Shown: positions 1 to 11,956 of the stretch, in pieces
Position numbering within the stretch: position 1 is the stretch's first letter
How the letters are laid out: every line of letters starts with the position of its first letter
Source: a virus
Direction: 5' to 3' (one strand)
Virus record (IMG/VR): IMGVR_UViG_3300006805_000191
Coordinates: 1-21,438 of that record
DNA length: 21,438 nucleotides
Notes under the pieces: generated by a model
What the model was told of the DNA's origin: nothing
What the model saw: the letters and a program-made list of their open reading frames with translations, nothing else
Databases searched by the model: none
Position numbers and translations under genes: made by a program

Positions 1-212
1 TAGCAGTCCACATCGTTTCCTATACCAATAAGAACGGTTTTGTTCCTGGTAAGAAGCAGATCGACCACATGTGTAACAATCGCAAGTGTGTCAACGAACA
101 CCATCTTCAGATGGTCACTCACAAGAAAAACCAGAAGCTTAGAGCTGAACGGTCCAAACTGAATCCCTTTGATCTTCCCTATAGCATTAGCGATTCCCAT
201 GCCCCTCCCTAA
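1..212 (+). CDS. HNH endonuclease, 3' end (5' part outside window)
   Basis: An open frame enters at the left edge (codons from base 3) and stops at TAA 210-212. The visible part carries the HNH signature of His-Me finger homing endonucleases: VHIVSYTNKNGFVPG, then IDHMC, then NNRKCVNEHHLQMVTHKKN. The His of IDH is the expected catalytic residue, and the Cys pair and HH are typical of the zinc-binding version of the fold. These proteins are free-standing DNA nickases or endonucleases that spread into neighbouring phage loci. The start lies outside the window, so length and any N-terminal NUMOD or AP2 domain cannot be judged. It lies just before the integrase module and overlaps the next small ORF by 14 nt. 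Confidence 0.8.
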   Translation, partial: AVHIVSYTNKNGFVPGKKQIDHMCNNRKCVNEHHLQMVTHKKNQKLRAERSKLNPFDLPYSISDSHAPP

Positions 213-369
213 GCCTTCCGAGGCTGCTATCAAACGAGCCATCAACGCTTGGCTTGCCTGTGGCCTCGCTGTAGGCTCTGTAAGCGTCTCCCAGGATGGG
301 TCCATCAGGATCGAAGCACCAGTTGCCAACATCCCCAAGGCCCCTGAGAAGAAGCCCCAGGACTGGTAG
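199..369 (+). CDS. Small integrase-associated protein, unknown function
   Basis: This 56-aa ORF (ATG 199, TAG 367-369) ends 9 nt before the integrase start. A TTG at 169 in the same frame would add 10 residues, but neither start has a clear Shine-Dalgarno sequence. The middle reads as a helix (SEAAIKRAINAWLACGL) then a strand pattern (VGSVSVSQDGSIRIEA), followed by a Pro/Lys-rich tail. From memory, similar short proteins with a 'V..V.v..DG.IRI' core sit directly upstream of tyrosine integrases in alphaproteobacterial prophages. That supports a real gene and hints at host range, but the function is unknown. It could be an excisionase-like or accessory factor; no DNA-binding motif is evident. 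Confidence 0.6.
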   Translation: MPLPKPSEAAIKRAINAWLACGLAVGSVSVSQDGSIRIEAPVANIPKAPEKKPQDW

Positions 370-378
370 GAGACTACG

Positions 379-1413
379 GTGGCAGTGAACCTAAAGTATG
401 TGACACGGGAAATTCTTCCAAGTGGTCAGATACGTTACAGATTTCGTAAGAACGGAACCAAGGTAACACTTACTGGTTCACCTGGAACCCCCGAGTTCCA
501 TGCTCACTACGCTGAGCTGCTCAAGGGAAAACCAAAGGCTGAAGATCCCCTCTTGGGGTCGATCAGCTGGCTAGTCACACTCTACCTTGAGAACCTTCAA
601 GCCCGTGTGACGGCAGGCTTAGCCTCTCCTCTCACCTACAAGGGGCATAACCATCATCTAGCTAAGCTTGTGGCTGAGTATGGTGAGAAGAACGTAAACA
701 TGCCCAGAGGAAAACTCATCGAGTTTAGAGATAGGTTCACGTCTACCCCTGGAGCTGCTGACAACCTCATGAAGTCAGTTTCTGCTCTATACAAGTGGGC
801 TATCCAAAGAGATCTGGTTTCTATAGATAACCCAACCCGTGGAATACATAGATTAAATCGGTCTAGTTCTGGTTTTGTTCCTTGGGTCCTAGAAGATTTT
901 GCAGCGTATTTTGGGAAGCATGTTTCCCCGAGTATCGCTCACACTGCTCTCATGCTGGCCATAGGCACTACAGCAAGACGCAGTGACATGATCCAGATCG
1001 GAGCTGACCACGAGTTCCAAAGGGACGGACGTACATGGCTTCGCTGGACCCAGGCAAAGAAGCCTAACAGGGTGGTTGAACTTCCTATGAGCCAGTCTCT
1101 CCTGGAAGCTACAAGACCCCTCAGACAGACACCCTACCTCATCACAGCCTATGGTAGACCATTCACCATCAATGGTTTTGGTGAGAAGTTCAGATCCTGG
1201 TGTGACGAAGCAAATATCAGCAAATCTCTCCACGGAGTTCGCAAAGGAGTATCATCACTTTTACCCTCCCATGGCACAACATCTCTTGAATTAGATGTTC
1301 TTCTCGGTCATGAGATGAACAGCGAAGAAACCAAAGTGTATATTGCCGTCGCTGAGCGTTCAGCTCTAGCAGTCTCGGTCATCGACAGGCTCGACAAGAT
1401 CTTGCTAAAGTGA
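379..1413 (+). CDS. int: Tyrosine recombinase / phage integrase
   Basis: A 344-aa tyrosine-family site-specific recombinase. The GTG start at 379 is chosen because AGGAGA lies 6-7 nt upstream. Residues about 60-160 form the SAM-like core-binding domain and 165-344 the catalytic domain. All catalytic residues can be assigned: Arg200 in TTARRSD, Lys227 or Lys228 in the beta-hairpin QAKKPNRVVELP, His285 and Arg288 in HGVR, His311 in LLGHE, and nucleophile Tyr321 in KVYIAV. The first 60 residues probably form the arm-type DNA-binding domain. The gene is intact and should cut and join attP and attB. A candidate attP with repeated motifs lies immediately downstream, as expected for an integration module. 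An integrase is unexpected in a phage with an otherwise N4-like, lytic replication region. Confidence 0.93.
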   Translation: MAVNLKYVTREILPSGQIRYRFRKNGTKVTLTGSPGTPEFHAHYAELLKGKPKAEDPLLGSISWLVTLYLENLQARVTAGLASPLTYKGHNHHLAKLVAEYGEKNVNMPRGKLIEFRDRFTSTPGAADNLMKSVSALYKWAIQRDLVSIDNPTRGIHRLNRSSSGFVPWVLEDFAAYFGKHVSPSIAHTALMLAIGTTARRSDMIQIGADHEFQRDGRTWLRWTQAKKPNRVVELPMSQSLLEATRPLRQTPYLITAYGRPFTINGFGEKFRSWCDEANISKSLHGVRKGVSSLLPSHGTTSLELDVLLGHEMNSEETKVYIAVAERSALAVSVIDRLDKILLK

Positions 1414-1465
1414 CCCACGTATTTTCAAAAGTGACCCACGACCATAAAAAACTACGTATTTTCAA
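1407..1465 (+). repeat. Tandem direct repeats after int (candidate arm-type sites)
   Basis: AAAGTGACCCACG occurs at 1407-1419 and 1428-1440, 21 bp apart (two helical turns). ACGTATTTTCAA occurs at 1417-1428 and 1454-1465. The first copies merge into the 18-mer TGACCCACGTATTTTCAA (1411-1428), which overlaps the integrase stop codon. A degenerate 18-mer, TGCCCCACGAATTTTGAA, recurs at 1595-1612 (15 of 18 positions match). Repeats with this spacing beside an integrase gene suit integrase arm-type sites or excisionase/repressor operators. No protein-binding evidence is available from sequence alone. Confidence 0.6.
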
Positions 1466-1484
1466 CAACATAATCTATGACTTG

Positions 1485-1504
1485 AAGTCCCTCCGGGCCT
1501 ACCA
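1485..1504 (+). other. Candidate attP core: tRNA 3'-end mimic
   Basis: AAGTCCCTCCGGGCCTACCA fits the last 20 positions of a tRNA. AAGT matches T-loop positions 57-60, CCCTC is the T-stem 3' strand (61-65), CGGGCCT the acceptor 3' strand (66-72), then A73 and CCA. The preceding bases (GACTTG) do not continue the T-arm, so this is not a tRNA gene. tRNA 3' ends are common integration sites for tyrosine recombinases, and attP usually carries this segment next to int. It lies 71 bp after the int stop codon and between the repeated TGACCCAC motifs. The target tRNA would have an acceptor 5' strand of AGGCCCG; its identity cannot be told from this window. Confidence 0.6.
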
Positions 1505-1537
1505 ACTCCATTGAAATCATTGGCTTTTCCAGAAAAA

Positions 1538-1552
1538 CTGACCCACAGTCAG
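1538..1552. repeat. Inverted repeat CTGAC-CCACA-GTCAG
   Basis: A perfect 5-bp inverted repeat with a 5-nt centre. It contains a third TGACCCAC copy (1539-1546), so it belongs to the same motif family as the repeats after the integrase gene. Its position between the candidate attP core and the next operon is compatible with an excisionase or repressor operator. It is short and could be coincidental. Confidence 0.4.
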
Positions 1553-1630
1553 TCGATTTCGGCCATCCTAGTATCAATGGGTTAGGACCTGGAGTGCCCC
1601 ACGAATTTTGAACCATGAAGGAACTTTTCC

Positions 1631-1861
1631 ATGAGTAATACTCGAATCCATCTGACCACTACGGTCTCATACCCTACGATGAACCTTGCCATTAACCTGG
1701 AAGAAGAAGCTAAGGCTCTGAAGTCTGATGAGTATAAGACGTACTTCAAGAAGGCTTCTCACGCCAAGCTGATGCAGACGATCAACGGTCGTCCCTTCCA
1801 GCCTGTGTTCTCGGCTGATCACTTCATCAAGCCTCAGCCGGTGCTGGCACATGCTGGGTGA
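1631..1861 (+). CDS. Hypothetical protein (76 aa)
   Basis: ATG 1631 is preceded by AAGGA (1618-1622) with a spacing of about 8 nt, a good ribosome-binding site, and the frame ends at TGA 1859-1861. The product is soluble, with a Lys/Glu-rich helix around residues 22-45 (EEEAKALKSDEYKTYFKKAS) and no membrane segment or recognised motif. It is the first gene after the candidate attP region, so a promoter is expected in 1505-1620, but no convincing -35/-10 pair could be picked out. It overlaps the next ORF by 11 nt, suggesting translational coupling. Function unknown. Confidence 0.7.
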   Translation: MSNTRIHLTTTVSYPTMNLAINLEEEAKALKSDEYKTYFKKASHAKLMQTINGRPFQPVFSADHFIKPQPVLAHAG

Positions 1862-2201: not shown

Positions 2202-2580
2202 TACAGCCTTCGAGGAAGGATGTGACATAGCCAAGGGTCTCAAACAAATCTACTTGCCATACAAATCATTCAACCGTAATGAGTCTCCCTTCTTTACTGT
2301 AACCAAGGAAGCCAGATTACTGGCAAAGAAGTACCATCCAGCATGGGAACATCTTGGAGACAAAGGACGGGACTTTATGGGTCGTAATGCCTATCAAGTC
2401 CTTGGCTTAGACTTGAATACTCCAGTTGATTTCATCGTTTGTTGGACTAATCATGGCCGTATTGAAGGCGGCACTGGTCAAGCTTTGAGAATGGCTGAAG
2501 ACCTGAAGATACCTGTTTGCAATCTTGGAAACATGAACCTCACGGAAGTTGAGGCTTTTCTTAAACAACAAATCGAGTAA
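2074..2580 (+). CDS. SLOG-domain (DprA/LOG-like Rossmann) protein
   Basis: A 168-aa single-domain protein of the SLOG superfamily, which includes DprA and LOG proteins. The visible signatures are the N-terminal strand with IGARETP (7-13), the glycine-rich LRSGGTKGADTAFE (34-47) and the second binding loop GGTGQALRMAED (132-143) after VDFIVCW. These loops bind nucleotides or nucleotide-derived ligands in characterised members. Phage versions are often labelled 'DNA recombination-mediator protein A-like' but lack the winged-helix tail of DprA, as here. ATG 2074 has only a weak ribosome-binding site (AGTGAG). Close neighbours are a cupin and a macro-domain-like protein, so a role in nucleotide-signal sensing or counter-defence is possible but unproven. 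Confidence 0.8.
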   Translation: MKRYAGIGARETPESSLKAMRSIGKYLAISGLLLRSGGTKGADTAFEEGCDIAKGLKQIYLPYKSFNRNESPFFTVTKEARLLAKKYHPAWEHLGDKGRDFMGRNAYQVLGLDLNTPVDFIVCWTNHGRIEGGTGQALRMAEDLKIPVCNLGNMNLTEVEAFLKQQIE

Positions 2581-2584
2581 AGCA

Positions 2585-3055
2585 ATGATAACAAAACGAC
2601 TTTTGCGTTATGCACTTAGCACCATTTACAAACGTGAACCTGATTTCGTAGTTGGTGGGAGACAAGCACCATACATGCTTCGATGGTGGGTGTTACCTCG
2701 TAACAGGTTCTTCAACGTTTACGTTCACATGTTCCTGAGAGATGACGATGATCGTGCACTTCATGATCACCCTTGGGCAAGTTTGTCTCTGCTTTGTCGG
2801 GGTACACTTACCGAAGTCACCCACGACAGCATTAAGACTATTCTTGCTGGTGAGTGGAGCTTCCGCTCAGCTACTCTAGCTCACAGACTCGTTGTTCCCC
2901 CTCAAAAAGAGTGCCCTATCACCCTGTTTATTACAGGACCTCGGGTACGTGAGTGGGGATTCCATTGTCCTAAGGGCTGGAAACCATGGATGGAATTCTG
3001 TGGTATTGGAGACAAGGGCACTGTTGGTGCTGGATGTGGGGAGGAAGATCTATGA
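2585..3055 (+). CDS. Cupin-fold protein of phage type, unknown substrate
   Basis: ATG 2585 (156 aa) is preferred over a TTG at 2549, which would overlap the SLOG gene and has no ribosome-binding site. The core matches a small cupin: a HDHPW motif (60-64) with two potential metal-ligand His, Glu77 in LTEVTH, and His100 in LAHRLVV. TLFITGPRVREWGFHCPKGW follows at 113-132. The HxH...H arrangement implies a metal site. Homologous proteins with the GPRVR.WGFH.P.GW block are, from memory, frequent in phages and remain uncharacterised. No signal peptide or membrane segment. It ends in an ATGA overlap with the next small gene. Confidence 0.7.
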   Translation: MITKRLLRYALSTIYKREPDFVVGGRQAPYMLRWWVLPRNRFFNVYVHMFLRDDDDRALHDHPWASLSLLCRGTLTEVTHDSIKTILAGEWSFRSATLAHRLVVPPQKECPITLFITGPRVREWGFHCPKGWKPWMEFCGIGDKGTVGAGCGEEDL

Positions 3056-7999: not shown

Positions 8000-10013
8000 A
8001 GTAACAAAGCATTATTACACTCCTTACCTGGAATCTCTGGGTAAGGATGTAATGGTGTGTGATATCTACTTGGATCCAACCAAGAAGAAGACTTCAGCTG
8101 CTGACATTAAAGACTACCTTGATGATTTGCTTCCCAATCTAATTGCTGCTGGAATCAAACTGATTGTTGTGACCCAACCTGATTACTTCAAGGTTCCCAC
8201 CAAGCAGGCAAAGACTGACTCGACTATTGGCGATGTGCTTCCCACCATTGTCAAAGATTTGTATGCAGCCTATTGCCCAAACTACTCACGGATCTTTTAC
8301 GATCCAGACAAAACCAAAGACAAGATCAAGACTGCGCTTAGTTCTGTAGTGCGTTGGCTCAATGGGGATAAGTCCTCTATTGGTCAAAGTATTATGAAAT
8401 TCACTGCTTATCCCAAGACTGATGATGAAATCATCGACTGGCTTGAAAAGCTTCTTGATATGGACTGTGATCTGACTTGTGATATTGAAGGTTTCTCCCT
8501 CAAACATTACGATGCAGGCATTGGTACTATTTGTTTCTGTTGGGATGAGCATAATGGGATTTCTTTCCCAGTTGATTACTCACCTATTGCCAATCCTGTA
8601 GGCAATACCTTTGGTGTTCAGATTACCAATCGCAGGCTTCACCGAGCATTGCGAAAGTTTTTTGAAGTCTTTCGGCACAAGATGATTTATCACAACATCA
8701 GCTATGATGCTTATGTCTTGATCTATCAACTCTTCATGACAGACATCCTCGATCAAGAGGGATTGCTCACTGGTCTTGAAGTCATGCTGAAGAATTGGGA
8801 TTGCTCTCAGCTGATCACATATCTTGCAACCAACTCTTGCTCAGGAAATGAGCTTGGATTGAAAACACAGGCTCAAGCCTTTGCAGGTAACTACGCTCAA
8901 GATGACATCCATGACATCACCAAGATTAAAATGGATGACCTCCTTGAATACAACCTGATTGATGGACTAGCCACTTGGCATGTCTACAATAAGAACCTGC
9001 CGATCATGATTGCTGATCAGCAAATGGACGTGTACCAAACAATCTTCCGACCAGCTGTAGTTGATATCATTCAGATGCAGCTGACAGGTATGCCCATTAA
9101 TATGGGTAAGGTTGAGAAGCTCAACGTTCTGCTTCAAAAAGAATCTGATCTCAATGAGCATCGGATGAATAGTCTGTCTCTGATTCAATCCTTTATGGAT
9201 ACACTCAGAGATGAATTGGTGGACAAGAAGAATGCCAAACTCAAGAAGAAGCAAATCACTCTTGCCGATCTGGGTAAAACCAAAGACACGACAATTGCAT
9301 TCAACCCCAATAGCTCCAATCAGCTTCAGAGACTTCTGTATGATGAAGACTTCCTTGGTTTGCCTGTGCTCGATTACACCGACGCTAAGCAACCAGCTAC
9401 AGGGGCAGAGACTCTTGAGAAGCTGGTAAACCATACCAAGGATCCAGACGTTGTTACGTTTCTGGAGCTGCTGATTGACTTCAAGGCTACGGCAATCATC
9501 CTGTCTACTTTCCTCCCTGCATTCTTGAAAGCCAAGAAGGGCAGCGACGGTTGGCACTACCTGTTTGGCAACTTCAGACTTGGTGGAACTGCATCAGGTA
9601 GACTCTCTTCCAACAATCCAAACCTTCAAAATATTCCAGCCTCTGGCTCATCTCCAGCAAAGCAAAGACTTGCCAAGCTGATCAAAGAATGTTTTGAAGC
9701 TCCTCCCGGTTGGTTGTTTGTCGGTCTGGATTTTGACTCCCTAGAGGACAAGATCTCTGCCGTCACAACCAAAGACCCTGAGAAGATCAAGGTCTACTCG
9801 GATGGGTATGATGGCCACTGTCTAAGAGCTTTGGCTTACTTCGGTGAGCACATGCCCAATATCGAAACTTGTCCTAATGGGGCTACAGCCTATGAAGCAA
9901 CCATCGGAGACAAGTCGATCTACTTCCATTCTGAAGAGGAAGTAGAATATCTCGGAACCACCTACCAAGGGTCCGAGCTTTTCAAACACCTAGAGCAAAA
10001 GGAATTTGCATGA
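7923..10013 (+). CDS. Family-A DNA polymerase, N-terminal part (exonuclease and palm motif A)
   Basis: 696 aa of a phage pol I-type replicative polymerase. The 3'-5' exonuclease domain has Exo I DIE (187-189), Exo II HNISYDAY (257-264) and Exo III LEYNLIDGLATWHVY (341-355). The polymerase part has TASGRLSSNNPNLQNIP (556-572) and motif A GLDFDSLED (601-609), with metal-binding Asp603 or Asp605. Motifs B and C are absent: the frame stops at 10011-10013, about 50 residues beyond DGYDGH. They resume about 1.2 kb downstream (11212-11956), so this protein alone cannot polymerise DNA. It must pair with the second part or be inactive. An N4 gp39-type polymerase (about 850 aa) has the same total size as both parts. 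The stop overlaps the ATG of a coupled 55-aa gene. Confidence 0.92.
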   Translation: MKYELIGNSNSTPDISVLCPRIQVGEVTKHYYTPYLESLGKDVMVCDIYLDPTKKKTSAADIKDYLDDLLPNLIAAGIKLIVVTQPDYFKVPTKQAKTDSTIGDVLPTIVKDLYAAYCPNYSRIFYDPDKTKDKIKTALSSVVRWLNGDKSSIGQSIMKFTAYPKTDDEIIDWLEKLLDMDCDLTCDIEGFSLKHYDAGIGTICFCWDEHNGISFPVDYSPIANPVGNTFGVQITNRRLHRALRKFFEVFRHKMIYHNISYDAYVLIYQLFMTDILDQEGLLTGLEVMLKNWDCSQLITYLATNSCSGNELGLKTQAQAFAGNYAQDDIHDITKIKMDDLLEYNLIDGLATWHVYNKNLPIMIADQQMDVYQTIFRPAVVDIIQMQLTGMPINMGKVEKLNVLLQKESDLNEHRMNSLSLIQSFMDTLRDELVDKKNAKLKKKQITLADLGKTKDTTIAFNPNSSNQLQRLLYDEDFLGLPVLDYTDAKQPATGAETLEKLVNHTKDPDVVTFLELLIDFKATAIILSTFLPAFLKAKKGSDGWHYLFGNFRLGGTASGRLSSNNPNLQNIPASGSSPAKQRLAKLIKECFEAPPGWLFVGLDFDSLEDKISAVTTKDPEKIKVYSDGYDGHCLRALAYFGEHMPNIETCPNGATAYEATIGDKSIYFHSEEEVEYLGTTYQGSELFKHLEQKEFA

Positions 10014-10177
10014 TACAACGTATACACATGAACTTTGATGAAGCAATTGCGCTTCTTCAAGTTGGAGCCACTAGCTTCACTTTCAAAAACCAAGCTGGTG
10101 AAATTTTCAAGGCTGATAAAGACAAAGATCTCTTTATTACTATCACTCATGTCCCCAAACAGGAGAATGTCCAATGA
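10010..10177 (+). CDS. Small coupled ORF in the polymerase insertion (55 aa)
   Basis: ATG 10010 overlaps the stop of the polymerase N-part (ATGA) and follows AAAAGGA with a spacing of 6, a strong ribosome-binding site. The product starts MIQRIHMNFDEAIALLQ and has a strand pair (SFTFKNQAGEIFKAD, LFITITHV). Its own stop overlaps the next ATG (CAATGAAG). No family recognised. The N-terminal helix resembles the openings of small phage proteins fused to or preceding gp49-type proteins, but this is weak. Confidence 0.65.
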   Translation: MIQRIHMNFDEAIALLQVGATSFTFKNQAGEIFKADKDKDLFITITHVPKQENVQ

Positions 10178-10680
10178 AGAACTCAAAGCAATATATTGGA
10201 ACCAAGGTAATCTCGGGAACTCCAATGACCCGAATCCAATACAATGATTACCGGGGATGGGTTATTCCTGAAGATGAAAATCCTTTAGATGAGGGCTATT
10301 TGGTTGAGTACGAACCAAATGAAGATAGTCCTCCGAACCATATTGATCATGCTGGTTACATCAGCTGGTCTCCAAAAAGTGTCTTTGAGGAAGCTTATAA
10401 GCCTACCTCAGAAGGTATGTCTTTTGGATATGCACTGGAGATGGTCAAGACTCAAGGTGCTCGTGTGGCTCGTAAGGGTTGGAACGGCAAAGGGATGTTC
10501 ATCTTCCTGGTTCCTGGATCCAAGTTCGTAGTCAACCGCGAACCTCTGATGTCCCTGCTCGGTGAGAATGCAGTGGTAAATTACCACGGTCACATCGACA
10601 TGAAGACTGCTGATGGAATGATCGTTCCTTGGCTTGCATCACAGACTGATGTGCTGGCTGAAGACTGGCAGATTGTCTGA
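10174..10680 (+). CDS. N4 gp49/Sf6 gp66 domain fused to Tad2 (DUF2829) anti-Thoeris domain
   Basis: A 168-aa two-domain protein. Residues about 6-77 match the N4 gp49/Sf6 gp66 family (KQYIGTKVI, PMTR, DEGYLVEY, GYISWSPKSVFEEAYKP). Residues 82-168 match DUF2829: FGYALEMVK, RKGWNGKGMF (100-109), MKTADG and VPWLASQTD, ending LAEDW. DUF2829 proteins include Tad2, which in studied phages captures the cyclic ADP-ribose-type signal made by TIR proteins of the Thoeris defence system, so the NADase effector is not activated. Signal-sponge activity here is inferred from the domain; the gp49 domain has no known function. AGGAG lies 8 nt before ATG 10174. The gene sits inside the split polymerase and is coupled on both sides. 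Confidence 0.85.
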   Translation: MKNSKQYIGTKVISGTPMTRIQYNDYRGWVIPEDENPLDEGYLVEYEPNEDSPPNHIDHAGYISWSPKSVFEEAYKPTSEGMSFGYALEMVKTQGARVARKGWNGKGMFIFLVPGSKFVVNREPLMSLLGENAVVNYHGHIDMKTADGMIVPWLASQTDVLAEDWQIV

Positions 10681-11228
10681 TGCTGATGAAACCCATCACT
10701 GGGTATGAAGAAGAATACTCGGTCACAGATTGTGGCCGGGTGTTCTCTCACCATTCCAACAGATTTCTAAAGCCTGCTACCCATAAGGATGTCGAGTATC
10801 TTCATGTATCTTTGTGGAAGAATGGATTTGGTTCTAGCTTTTATGTTCACCGACTAATCGCTATTACCTTCATTCCAAATCCATTTTTTCTCCCTGAAGT
10901 TAATCATAAGGATGGTGATAGACACAACAACAGTGTGTCCAATCTTGAATGGGTCACTCGAAAAGATAACGCTATTCACGCAGTGTCCACTGGGCTTCGT
11001 GTTTACACGAACAGAATGACCAACGATGAGTTTTTGGAATGCTTACAAGATGTAATTGATGGTGAGTCATACTACTCATTGTCTTTAAGGGTTCCGTATC
11101 AAGTTCCGTATTTGTCAGTGAAACTTAGACGGATTGCCAAAGAAGAAAGATTCGAAGACCTTCTTAACCAATCCCTATATAAACAGAAGGTAATGAGAGC
11201 GAGGACCAATAGTGCTAAAAATCAATAA
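10680..11228 (+). CDS. HNH homing endonuclease (NUMOD4 + HNH)
   Basis: A 182-aa endonuclease. Residues 6-31 form a NUMOD4 DNA-binding motif (ITGYEEEYSVTDCGRVFS). Residues 56-100 form the HNH domain: VHRLIAITFIPNP, VNHKDGDRHNN with the catalytic His, and NLEWVTRKDN. The C-terminal about 80 residues probably bind DNA. Such enzymes cut intron-less or insert-less alleles and are spread by repair. ATG 10680 overlaps the stop of the Tad2 fusion (TGATG); an ATG at 10686 is an alternative. By eye it is more AT-rich than its neighbours, consistent with later arrival. It lies in the gap of the split polymerase gene, so it is the likely agent that placed the insertion there. Confidence 0.9.
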   Translation: MLMKPITGYEEEYSVTDCGRVFSHHSNRFLKPATHKDVEYLHVSLWKNGFGSSFYVHRLIAITFIPNPFFLPEVNHKDGDRHNNSVSNLEWVTRKDNAIHAVSTGLRVYTNRMTNDEFLECLQDVIDGESYYSLSLRVPYQVPYLSVKLRRIAKEERFEDLLNQSLYKQKVMRARTNSAKNQ

Positions 11229-11382
11229 TGAAATTACGGATGTTCGGAAGGTGGATTCTTCCAAACACAATGTTGCTCGTGTAAACAGCATCAAAGTAGA
11301 TTATCCAGTCTGGAGGCAGGACTCTAAGAGTCCTACCTTTCGCACTTACCTATCAGGGGACGTACATTACCCTGATGAATAA
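11212..11382 (+). CDS. DNA polymerase middle segment (start of C-terminal part, before +1 shift)
   Basis: GTG 11212 lies inside the end of the HNH gene and follows AGGA (11202-11205, spacing 6), so it can be started independently. The segment reads MLKINNEITDVRKVDSS, then VNSIKVDYPVWRQDSKSPTF, which is the start of polymerase motif B (O-helix) with its invariant Arg and Lys. After TTT (11338-11340) the frame becomes non-homologous (RTYLSG) and ends at TAA 11380-11382. The homologous continuation, ALTYQGTYITLMNN, is in the +1 frame starting at 11342. Read alone it is a 56-aa fragment; with a +1 shift it joins the next entry. Confidence 0.6.
   Translation: MLKINNEITDVRKVDSSKHNVARVNSIKVDYPVWRQDSKSPTFRTYLSGDVHYPDE
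11338..11341 (+). other. Apparent +1 frameshift site TTT-C in polymerase motif B
   Basis: Frame 1 gives SPTF up to TTT (11338-11340). Skipping the C at 11341 gives GCA CTT ACC TAT CAG, that is ALTYQG, which restores the PTFALTYQGTY block of phage family-A polymerases. Shifting Phe-tRNA from UUU to the better-matched UUC is mechanistically plausible. A one-base insertion in the genome or a sequencing error would look identical. Confidence 0.7.
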
Positions 11383-11956
11383 CTGTGGATTCACCAAGAA
11401 ATTAGCTCAATCAGTCGAAGCCAGTTACCACGATCTCTACGTTGTATCTGACAAATGGGTAGCTGATAAACTCGATCAAGCCTGCAAGGATGGATATGTC
11501 ACTCTAGCCTTTGGTTTGAGGCTGCGTACACCTCTGCTTAAGCAGGTAGTGCTGGGTACATCCAAGACTCCTTATGAGGCTGCTGCTGAAGGCAGGACAG
11601 CTGGCAATGCTCTGGGCCAGAGCTGGTGTATGTTGAACTCCAGAGCCATGAGTGAATTCATGGGTAAAGCTCGTAAGAGCAAACATCGTCTAGATATCAA
11701 ACCATGTGCTCAGATCCATGATGCCAACTATCTGCTTATCAAGGATTCCATGGACACTTTGATGTACACCAATACCCACCTGTCCATTGCTGTTAGTTGG
11801 CAACAAGATCCTCTGATTCAAAACGAACACATTTCAATGAGTGGACAGCTGGCTATTTTCTATCCGAATTGGTCCAAGTCCTTCGACATTCCAAATCAAA
11901 CAACCCCTGAAGAGATTAAGGGATTGATCAAAAAACATATGGGTAAGCTTAAATGA
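11375..11956 (+). CDS. Family-A DNA polymerase, C-terminal part (fingers/palm, motif C)
   Basis: 193 aa from ATG 11375; the open frame runs upstream to about 11342, where it carries the end of motif B (ALTYQGTY). Visible are DGYVTLAFGLRLRTPLL (39-55), the helix with AEGRTAGNALGQSWCMLNSRA and motif C QIHDANYLLIKD, whose Asp116 is the second catalytic metal ligand. Its upstream half is in another frame (11212-11341), so full activity would need a +1 shift or a repaired sequence. ATG 11375 has no ribosome-binding site and cuts off motif B, so it is probably not the biological start; it is only the first ATG in this frame. It ends in an ATGA overlap with the nuclease gene. Confidence 0.88.
   Translation: MNNCGFTKKLAQSVEASYHDLYVVSDKWVADKLDQACKDGYVTLAFGLRLRTPLLKQVVLGTSKTPYEAAAEGRTAGNALGQSWCMLNSRAMSEFMGKARKSKHRLDIKPCAQIHDANYLLIKDSMDTLMYTNTHLSIAVSWQQDPLIQNEHISMSGQLAIFYPNWSKSFDIPNQTTPEEIKGLIKKHMGKLK

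Follow-up and report, generated by a model that had tools for sequence, protein, structure and literature searches.

The window, which is the whole stretch of DNA analysed here and comprises all 21,438 bases of virus record IMGVR_UViG_3300006805_000191 (positions 1-21,438), carries at its left end a predicted integrase gene and a putative phage attachment site (attP) between two N4-like genes. The features of this locus are as follows.

3-212, plus strand: N4 gp22-like HNH endonuclease gene, left neighbour of the cassette (phrog_10495, 2e-22); its 5' end lies beyond the contig
199-369, plus strand: small ORF of 56 aa that opens the cassette, with homologues upstream of related integrases
379-1413, plus strand: predicted tyrosine integrase, 344 aa, GTG start
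1410-1419, plus strand: putative arm-type site P1 (GTGACCCACG), -75 from the core; same position in four rebuilt attP sites
1431-1440, plus strand: putative arm-type site P2 (GTGACCCACG), -54 from the core
1485-1504, plus strand: putative attP core, 20 nt identical to tRNA(CAT) from T-loop position 57 to the CCA end
1538-1547, plus strand: putative arm-type site P'1 (CTGACCCACA, two mismatches), +34 from the core; +32 to +37 in relatives
1572-1584, plus strand: IHF-consensus site TATCAATGGGTTA (WATCAANNNNTTR), +68 from the core
1594-1603, plus strand: putative arm-type site P'2 (GTGCCCCACG), +90 from the core; +79 to +93 in relatives
1631-1861, plus strand: small N4-like ORF, right neighbour of the cassette, found directly 3' of the gp22-like HNH gene in relatives

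The ORF at 379-1413 is predicted to be a tyrosine recombinase (phage integrase, PF00589) with intact catalytic residues. Its match to PF00589 lies above the Pfam cut-off (6e-8; 33.1 bits against 27.1), and it also matches phrog_1 (integrase) at 8e-19; no match to PDB sequences was found at E<=0.01. An earlier note on this DNA had credited the enzyme with all catalytic residues, and this is borne out by the alignment: R200, K227, H285, R288, H311 and Y321, which from knowledge of the family we take to be the tyrosine-recombinase catalytic set (R-K-H-R-H-Y), are invariant in 14 sequences, namely the window integrase and 13 relatives. The small ORF at 199-369 gave no Pfam or PHROG match. Its homologues in Rhodobacteraceae elements (E 1e-9 to 1e-4) lie directly 5' of related integrases at L177, L178, L180, L183, L184, L192, L197 and L204. 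As they hold the same place in several elements, this ORF appears to travel with the integration module, and it could possibly encode a directionality or regulatory factor.

The core begins 71 nt 3' of the integrase stop codon, and its resemblance to a tRNA 3' end, as claimed in the earlier note, proved to be an exact identity with the 3' end of tRNA(CAT). An exact scan of bacterial genome contigs with the 20-mer gave at least 119 matches; of the 119 listed, 115 are the 3' end of a tRNA(CAT) called by ARAGORN, and the remainder are either truncated tRNAs or probably further copies of an att site. The search of alphaproteobacterial genomes for such a tRNA, which the earlier note had proposed, was thereby successful, the identical 20-mer ending tRNA(CAT) in more than 100 of them. 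The tRNA(CAT) matches listed are mostly from Rhodobacteraceae, and also from Pseudovibrio, Thalassospira and SAR11/HIMB59-type genomes. ARAGORN labels this tRNA as tRNA-Met on account of its CAT anticodon. Since the E. coli tRNA that best matches a representative tRNA(CAT) is annotated as tRNA-Ile (80-81% identity over the full length), the target is more likely the lysidine-modified tRNA-Ile2.

By simple arithmetic, a 20-nt match between a 21-kb window and any of about 45 tRNA 3' ends is expected by chance with a probability of about 2e-6, and a fortuitous resemblance is ruled out, as genuine tRNA genes of more than 100 genomes contain all 20 nt without a mismatch. A remnant of a phage-borne tRNA gene was likewise rejected, as ARAGORN found no tRNA in the window; moreover, the match extends only to T-loop position 57, as is expected of an att core. 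A reversed core was also considered. In several relatives the CCA end of the tRNA faces the integrase, and in a larger sample two orientations were found, one of which is that of the window. Exact copies of the 20-mer also occur outside any recognisable tRNA on bacterial or viral contigs (L067, L091, L130 and L142), where they are probably att sites of other integrated elements. Three further contigs (L122, L125 and L137) belong to phages of a non-N4 type with DnaB-like helicase and primase-like genes. In these, the integrase adjoins a sequence that matches the same tRNA(CAT) end over a greater length, and this bacterial attachment site (attB) is therefore common to unrelated phages.

With regard to the sequences surrounding the core, the earlier note had placed it within repeated motifs, and shuffled sequences lend weight to this description: the window contains three copies of the motif GTGNCCCACG (at 1410, 1431 and 1594), all within 200 bp, against 0.16 expected. 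One of the four putative arms, P'1, is degenerate, with two mismatches. The IHF consensus, found twice against 0.86 expected, is by itself weak evidence; the site carries weight because its position is conserved, and not because the consensus is rare. This conservation emerges from comparison with related elements.

Integrases related to that of the window were detected in 81 of 395 genomes sampled from the family of a Ruegeria genome (Rhodobacteraceae), the best being 52% (L177) and 48% (L178) identical. In the tree, the window integrase groups with Rhodobacteraceae prophage-type integrases and forms a single four-row clade with L177, L306 and L178 (support 100/99). Its nearest relatives, L177 and L306 (both 52%), use a tRNA-Leu, in the orientation opposite to that of the window. 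The arrangement of the window, in which the integrase is followed by a core in plus orientation, recurs in L178, L182, L186, L187, L191 and L194, with about 75-130 bp between the two and zero to three mismatches to the window core. In four of these six, a partner tRNA(CAT) gene in which the core is repeated over 15-21 bp is located 40-58 kb away and therefore marks the far end of an integrated element.

For these four elements (L178/G219, L187/G354, L186/G112 and L182/G282, with integrases 48, 35, 35 and 35% identical to that of the window, respectively), attP was rebuilt by joining both flanks. Relative to the core, the rebuilt sites have arms at -75/-77, -53 to -57, +32 to +37 and +79 to +93. 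All four also contain an IHF-consensus site at +58 to +71, exact in three and with one mismatch in G282. The sequence of the arm repeat varies among elements, as is expected for the arm sites of diverged integrases, whereas the spacing is conserved. The elements at tRNA(CAT) in Rhodobacteraceae thus share their orientation and their arm, IHF and core geometry with the window; the upstream small ORF was detected for L178. On this basis, the window is predicted to hold a full lambda-type attP matching a tRNA gene, comprising a core, arms on both sides and an IHF site at conserved spacing.

None of the tested N4-like proteins was found inside the four tRNA(CAT) elements, and an N4-like prophage at the relatives of the integrase was rejected more broadly, with L177, L178, L182, L186, L187, L191, L194 and L306-L309 all lacking the tested N4-like proteins. 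Viral contigs gave no match when searched with the integrase alone; a three-sequence integrase alignment retrieved only four loci, all without N4-like genes.

The remainder of the contig, in keeping with the earlier note, is N4-like, and is assigned from its gene content to the Schitoviridae, with a Rhodovirinae-like character. N4-like phages inject an RNA polymerase that initiates their transcription, and they are commonly held to be strictly lytic. The C-terminal ~1079 aa of the virion RNA polymerase are encoded on the contig (phrog_2206, 1032 bits), which stops inside this gene, so that the rest lies beyond its end. Profile matches identified an N4-type primase, exonuclease, SSB, helicase and Sak4-like protein, and the N4-type replication module is in the conserved order. 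The primase is 65-71% identical to those of Rhodovirinae roseophages (the group of vBDshPR2C, RD-1410W1-01 and DSS3phi2). The order of the replication genes is also that of Dinoroseobacter phage vBDshPR2C and Roseobacter phage RD-1410W1-01, the two examined, as is the gene order on both sides of the cassette. In contrast to the window, neither phage has an integrase at the position of the cassette, and different small ORFs and DprA come after the gp22-like gene there. The host is probably a member of the Rhodobacteraceae of the roseobacter type. Both premises on which the earlier note had staked its proposal therefore hold, as bacterial tRNA genes share the 20-mer and the genome is N4-like. 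The window represents 21 kb of a presumed ~75-kb genome, of which ~50 kb are missing.

The cassette spans about 165/199 to 1610 and consists of the small ORF, the tyrosine integrase and an attP of ~200 bp, with the gp22-like HNH gene on its left and the DprA/RNR gene block on its right. In the close N4-like contigs L155-L158, the gene at the matching place is 68-83% identical to the HNH gene (3-212), and about 0-25 bp separate it from the next gene, the homologue of ORF 1631-1861, whereas ~1.4 kb intervenes in the window. This comparison points to a clean insertion of the 1.4-kb cassette between two adjoining N4-like genes. Because close N4-like relatives lack it, the cassette seems to have been gained and not to be the relic of a temperate N4 ancestor. 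The earlier note had suggested that the phage is capable of integration or descends from one that was. This suggestion fits, given the occurrence of this integrase family at tRNA(CAT) genes with the same attP layout, but the part on descent needs refinement in view of the apparent gain. The GC content of the cassette (49%) is close to that of the phage (47-48%), compared with 51-65% at the loci of the relatives, which suggests long residence with adjustment or a donor of low GC content.

An integrase above the PF00589 cut-off was found in none of 71 N4-like records (0/21 and 0/50), many of which are fragments, so that single absences are uncertain. One of the 50 records has a divergent integrase below the cut-off. 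Besides that of the window, a second N4-like record, L305 (IMGVR_UViG_3300025887_000038; primase 50% identical), encodes a tyrosine integrase, different from that of the window, at 791-2094 (phrog_1, 2e-31), located ~8 kb before the primase and preceded by an overlapping excisionase-like ORF. In the N4-like contigs L165, L167 and L174, the ribonucleotide reductase gene is apparently split by insertions of roughly 0.5-0.9 kb. The early region of the window also encodes, next to the DprA-like gene, an ORF (2549-3055) of the PHROG family 'cysteine dioxygenase' (4e-49), which is also present in the N4-like relative L156 and was not detected in the other relatives compared.

A separate interruption affects the N4-type DNA polymerase gene of the window at 9865-11375, the two parts of which are found at 7923-about 9865 and about 11290-11956. 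Between them lie the following features.

10011-10176: short ORF
10174-10680: Tad2-like anti-Thoeris gene
10680-11228: NUMOD4/HNH endonuclease gene

The downstream part shows a one-base frame shift relative to relatives, and no Rfam intron match was obtained for the interruption. It may represent an intron, a split gene or a broken gene.

The explanation that we favour, and in which we have considerable confidence, is that an N4-like phage gained a complete cassette from temperate Rhodobacteraceae elements and would integrate by means of it at the 3' terminus of a host tRNA(CAT) gene. It builds on what can be read directly from the DNA: the integrase and the core, the geometry of the arms, the insertion, its N4-like surroundings and the homologous elements that are integrated in bacterial genomes. 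A lineage regarded as lytic would have captured the integration module of such temperate elements. The N-terminal domain of the integrase would bind the arm sites, and host IHF would bend the DNA at the +68 site. Recombination would then take place between the 20-bp core and its exact counterpart in the host, the 3' terminus of a tRNA(CAT) gene that most probably encodes tRNA-Ile2. As the phage copy of the core would regenerate the 3' end, the tRNA would be left intact. The phage would come to lie after the tRNA, with the integrase at the far end and pointing outward, as in G219, G354, G112 and G282. From the conserved features we infer catalytic activity, use of IHF and actual integration; the captured module is probably competent for integration, and insertion of the phage into the chromosome of its host is possible. 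Weighing against this explanation are the lack of the N4-like primase in the genomes sampled and of a recognisable repressor among the scanned proteins, the two mismatches in P'1, the use of a tRNA-Leu in the opposite orientation by L177 and L306, and the short distance from the contig start to the integrase.

What integration would lead to is less clear. We give an even chance to a cassette that works in an otherwise lytic cycle, integration being rare and transient; the main mechanism is the same as in the favoured explanation, and the outcome alone differs. There is experimental precedent in the T7-like cyanophages P-SSP7 and S-TIP37, which carry int and a tRNA-Leu attP and no repressor, and whose integration was shown to be transient, with no stable lysogens (PMC8776855). 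Like the phage of the window, these are marine podoviruses of a lytic lineage in which the integrase is followed by a tRNA-identical attP, although phage family, host and tRNA are different. The search for N4-like prophages proposed in the earlier note also favours this outcome. The N4-like primase was found in none of 395 Rhodobacteraceae-family and 385 class-level alphaproteobacterial genomes, and no integrated N4-like provirus was seen in these ~780 genomes, which constitute a sample and not a proof of absence; the same query recovers five N4-like records at 49-78% identity as a positive control. Similarly, no repressor or lysogeny-control gene was found among the scanned proteins of the window. 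These considerations are tempered by the ~50 kb of genome that are missing and by the N4-like proviruses reported in other hosts, mainly Moraxella (PMC10654107).

Stable lysogeny at tRNA(CAT), controlled by regulators whose genes would lie in the portion not covered by the contig, is possible, and we hold it only tentatively. The cassette is apparently intact and its GC content adjusted to the phage, which is consistent with maintained function, and integrase-bearing N4-like genomes and proviruses are on record (PMC10654107). The empty genome sample, the lack of a repressor in the available part and the absence of the cassette from the close relatives L155-L158 all speak against it. The specific claim that a Rhodovirinae-like phage which injects an RNA polymerase is a true temperate phage, integrating at tRNA-Ile2(CAT) via a captured lambda-type module, appears rather unlikely.

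It is improbable that the cassette is a fresh passenger or decaying remnant, picked up from a prophage through illegitimate recombination and without a useful role. Its sporadic occurrence among N4-like records and the degenerate P'1 arm would fit, but at ~50% identity to its nearest relatives a neutral cassette is not expected to have kept an open frame, six catalytic residues, four arms and an IHF site at conserved spacing, and an exact 20-nt core. An assembly chimera of a prophage integration module and an N4-like genome is very improbable: the contig begins only 379 bp before the integrase, with about 165-212 bp of N4-like sequence to the left of the cassette, but N4-like genes in conserved order on both sides would require two breakpoints at one gene junction, and the GC content of the cassette matches that of the phage.

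An integrase in an N4-like virus is not new as such. Integrase-bearing N4-like viruses and proviruses, the latter mainly from Moraxella, were reported in 2023, with 54 N4-like genomes carrying lysogeny hallmark genes and a lysogenic strategy suggested for some of these viruses (PMC10654107). The surprise expressed in the earlier note, that a lytic group should carry an integrase, is accordingly smaller than claimed. Those viruses combine an N4-like core with an integrase, as does the window; the passages describing them give no attP anatomy and no mention of the tRNA, both of which are defined here (PMC10654107). In the literature on Rhodovirinae, to which the phage of the window lies close, a non-exhaustive search found no report of an integrase. 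The novelty therefore lies in an attP described at base level, with arms and an IHF site, the identification of the attB tRNA, the boundaries of the insertion and the likely class of donor. The observation is stronger than first stated, and a temperate lifestyle is unproven.

With a base-defined core, arms and IHF site and a named attB, integration by an N4-like phage becomes directly testable in marine alphaproteobacteria. If the phage is truly temperate, dormancy must shut down a virus in which a virion-carried polymerase, and not the host enzyme, transcribes the early genes. More generally, the cassette suggests that a lytic lineage can acquire integration machinery in one 1.4-kb step.
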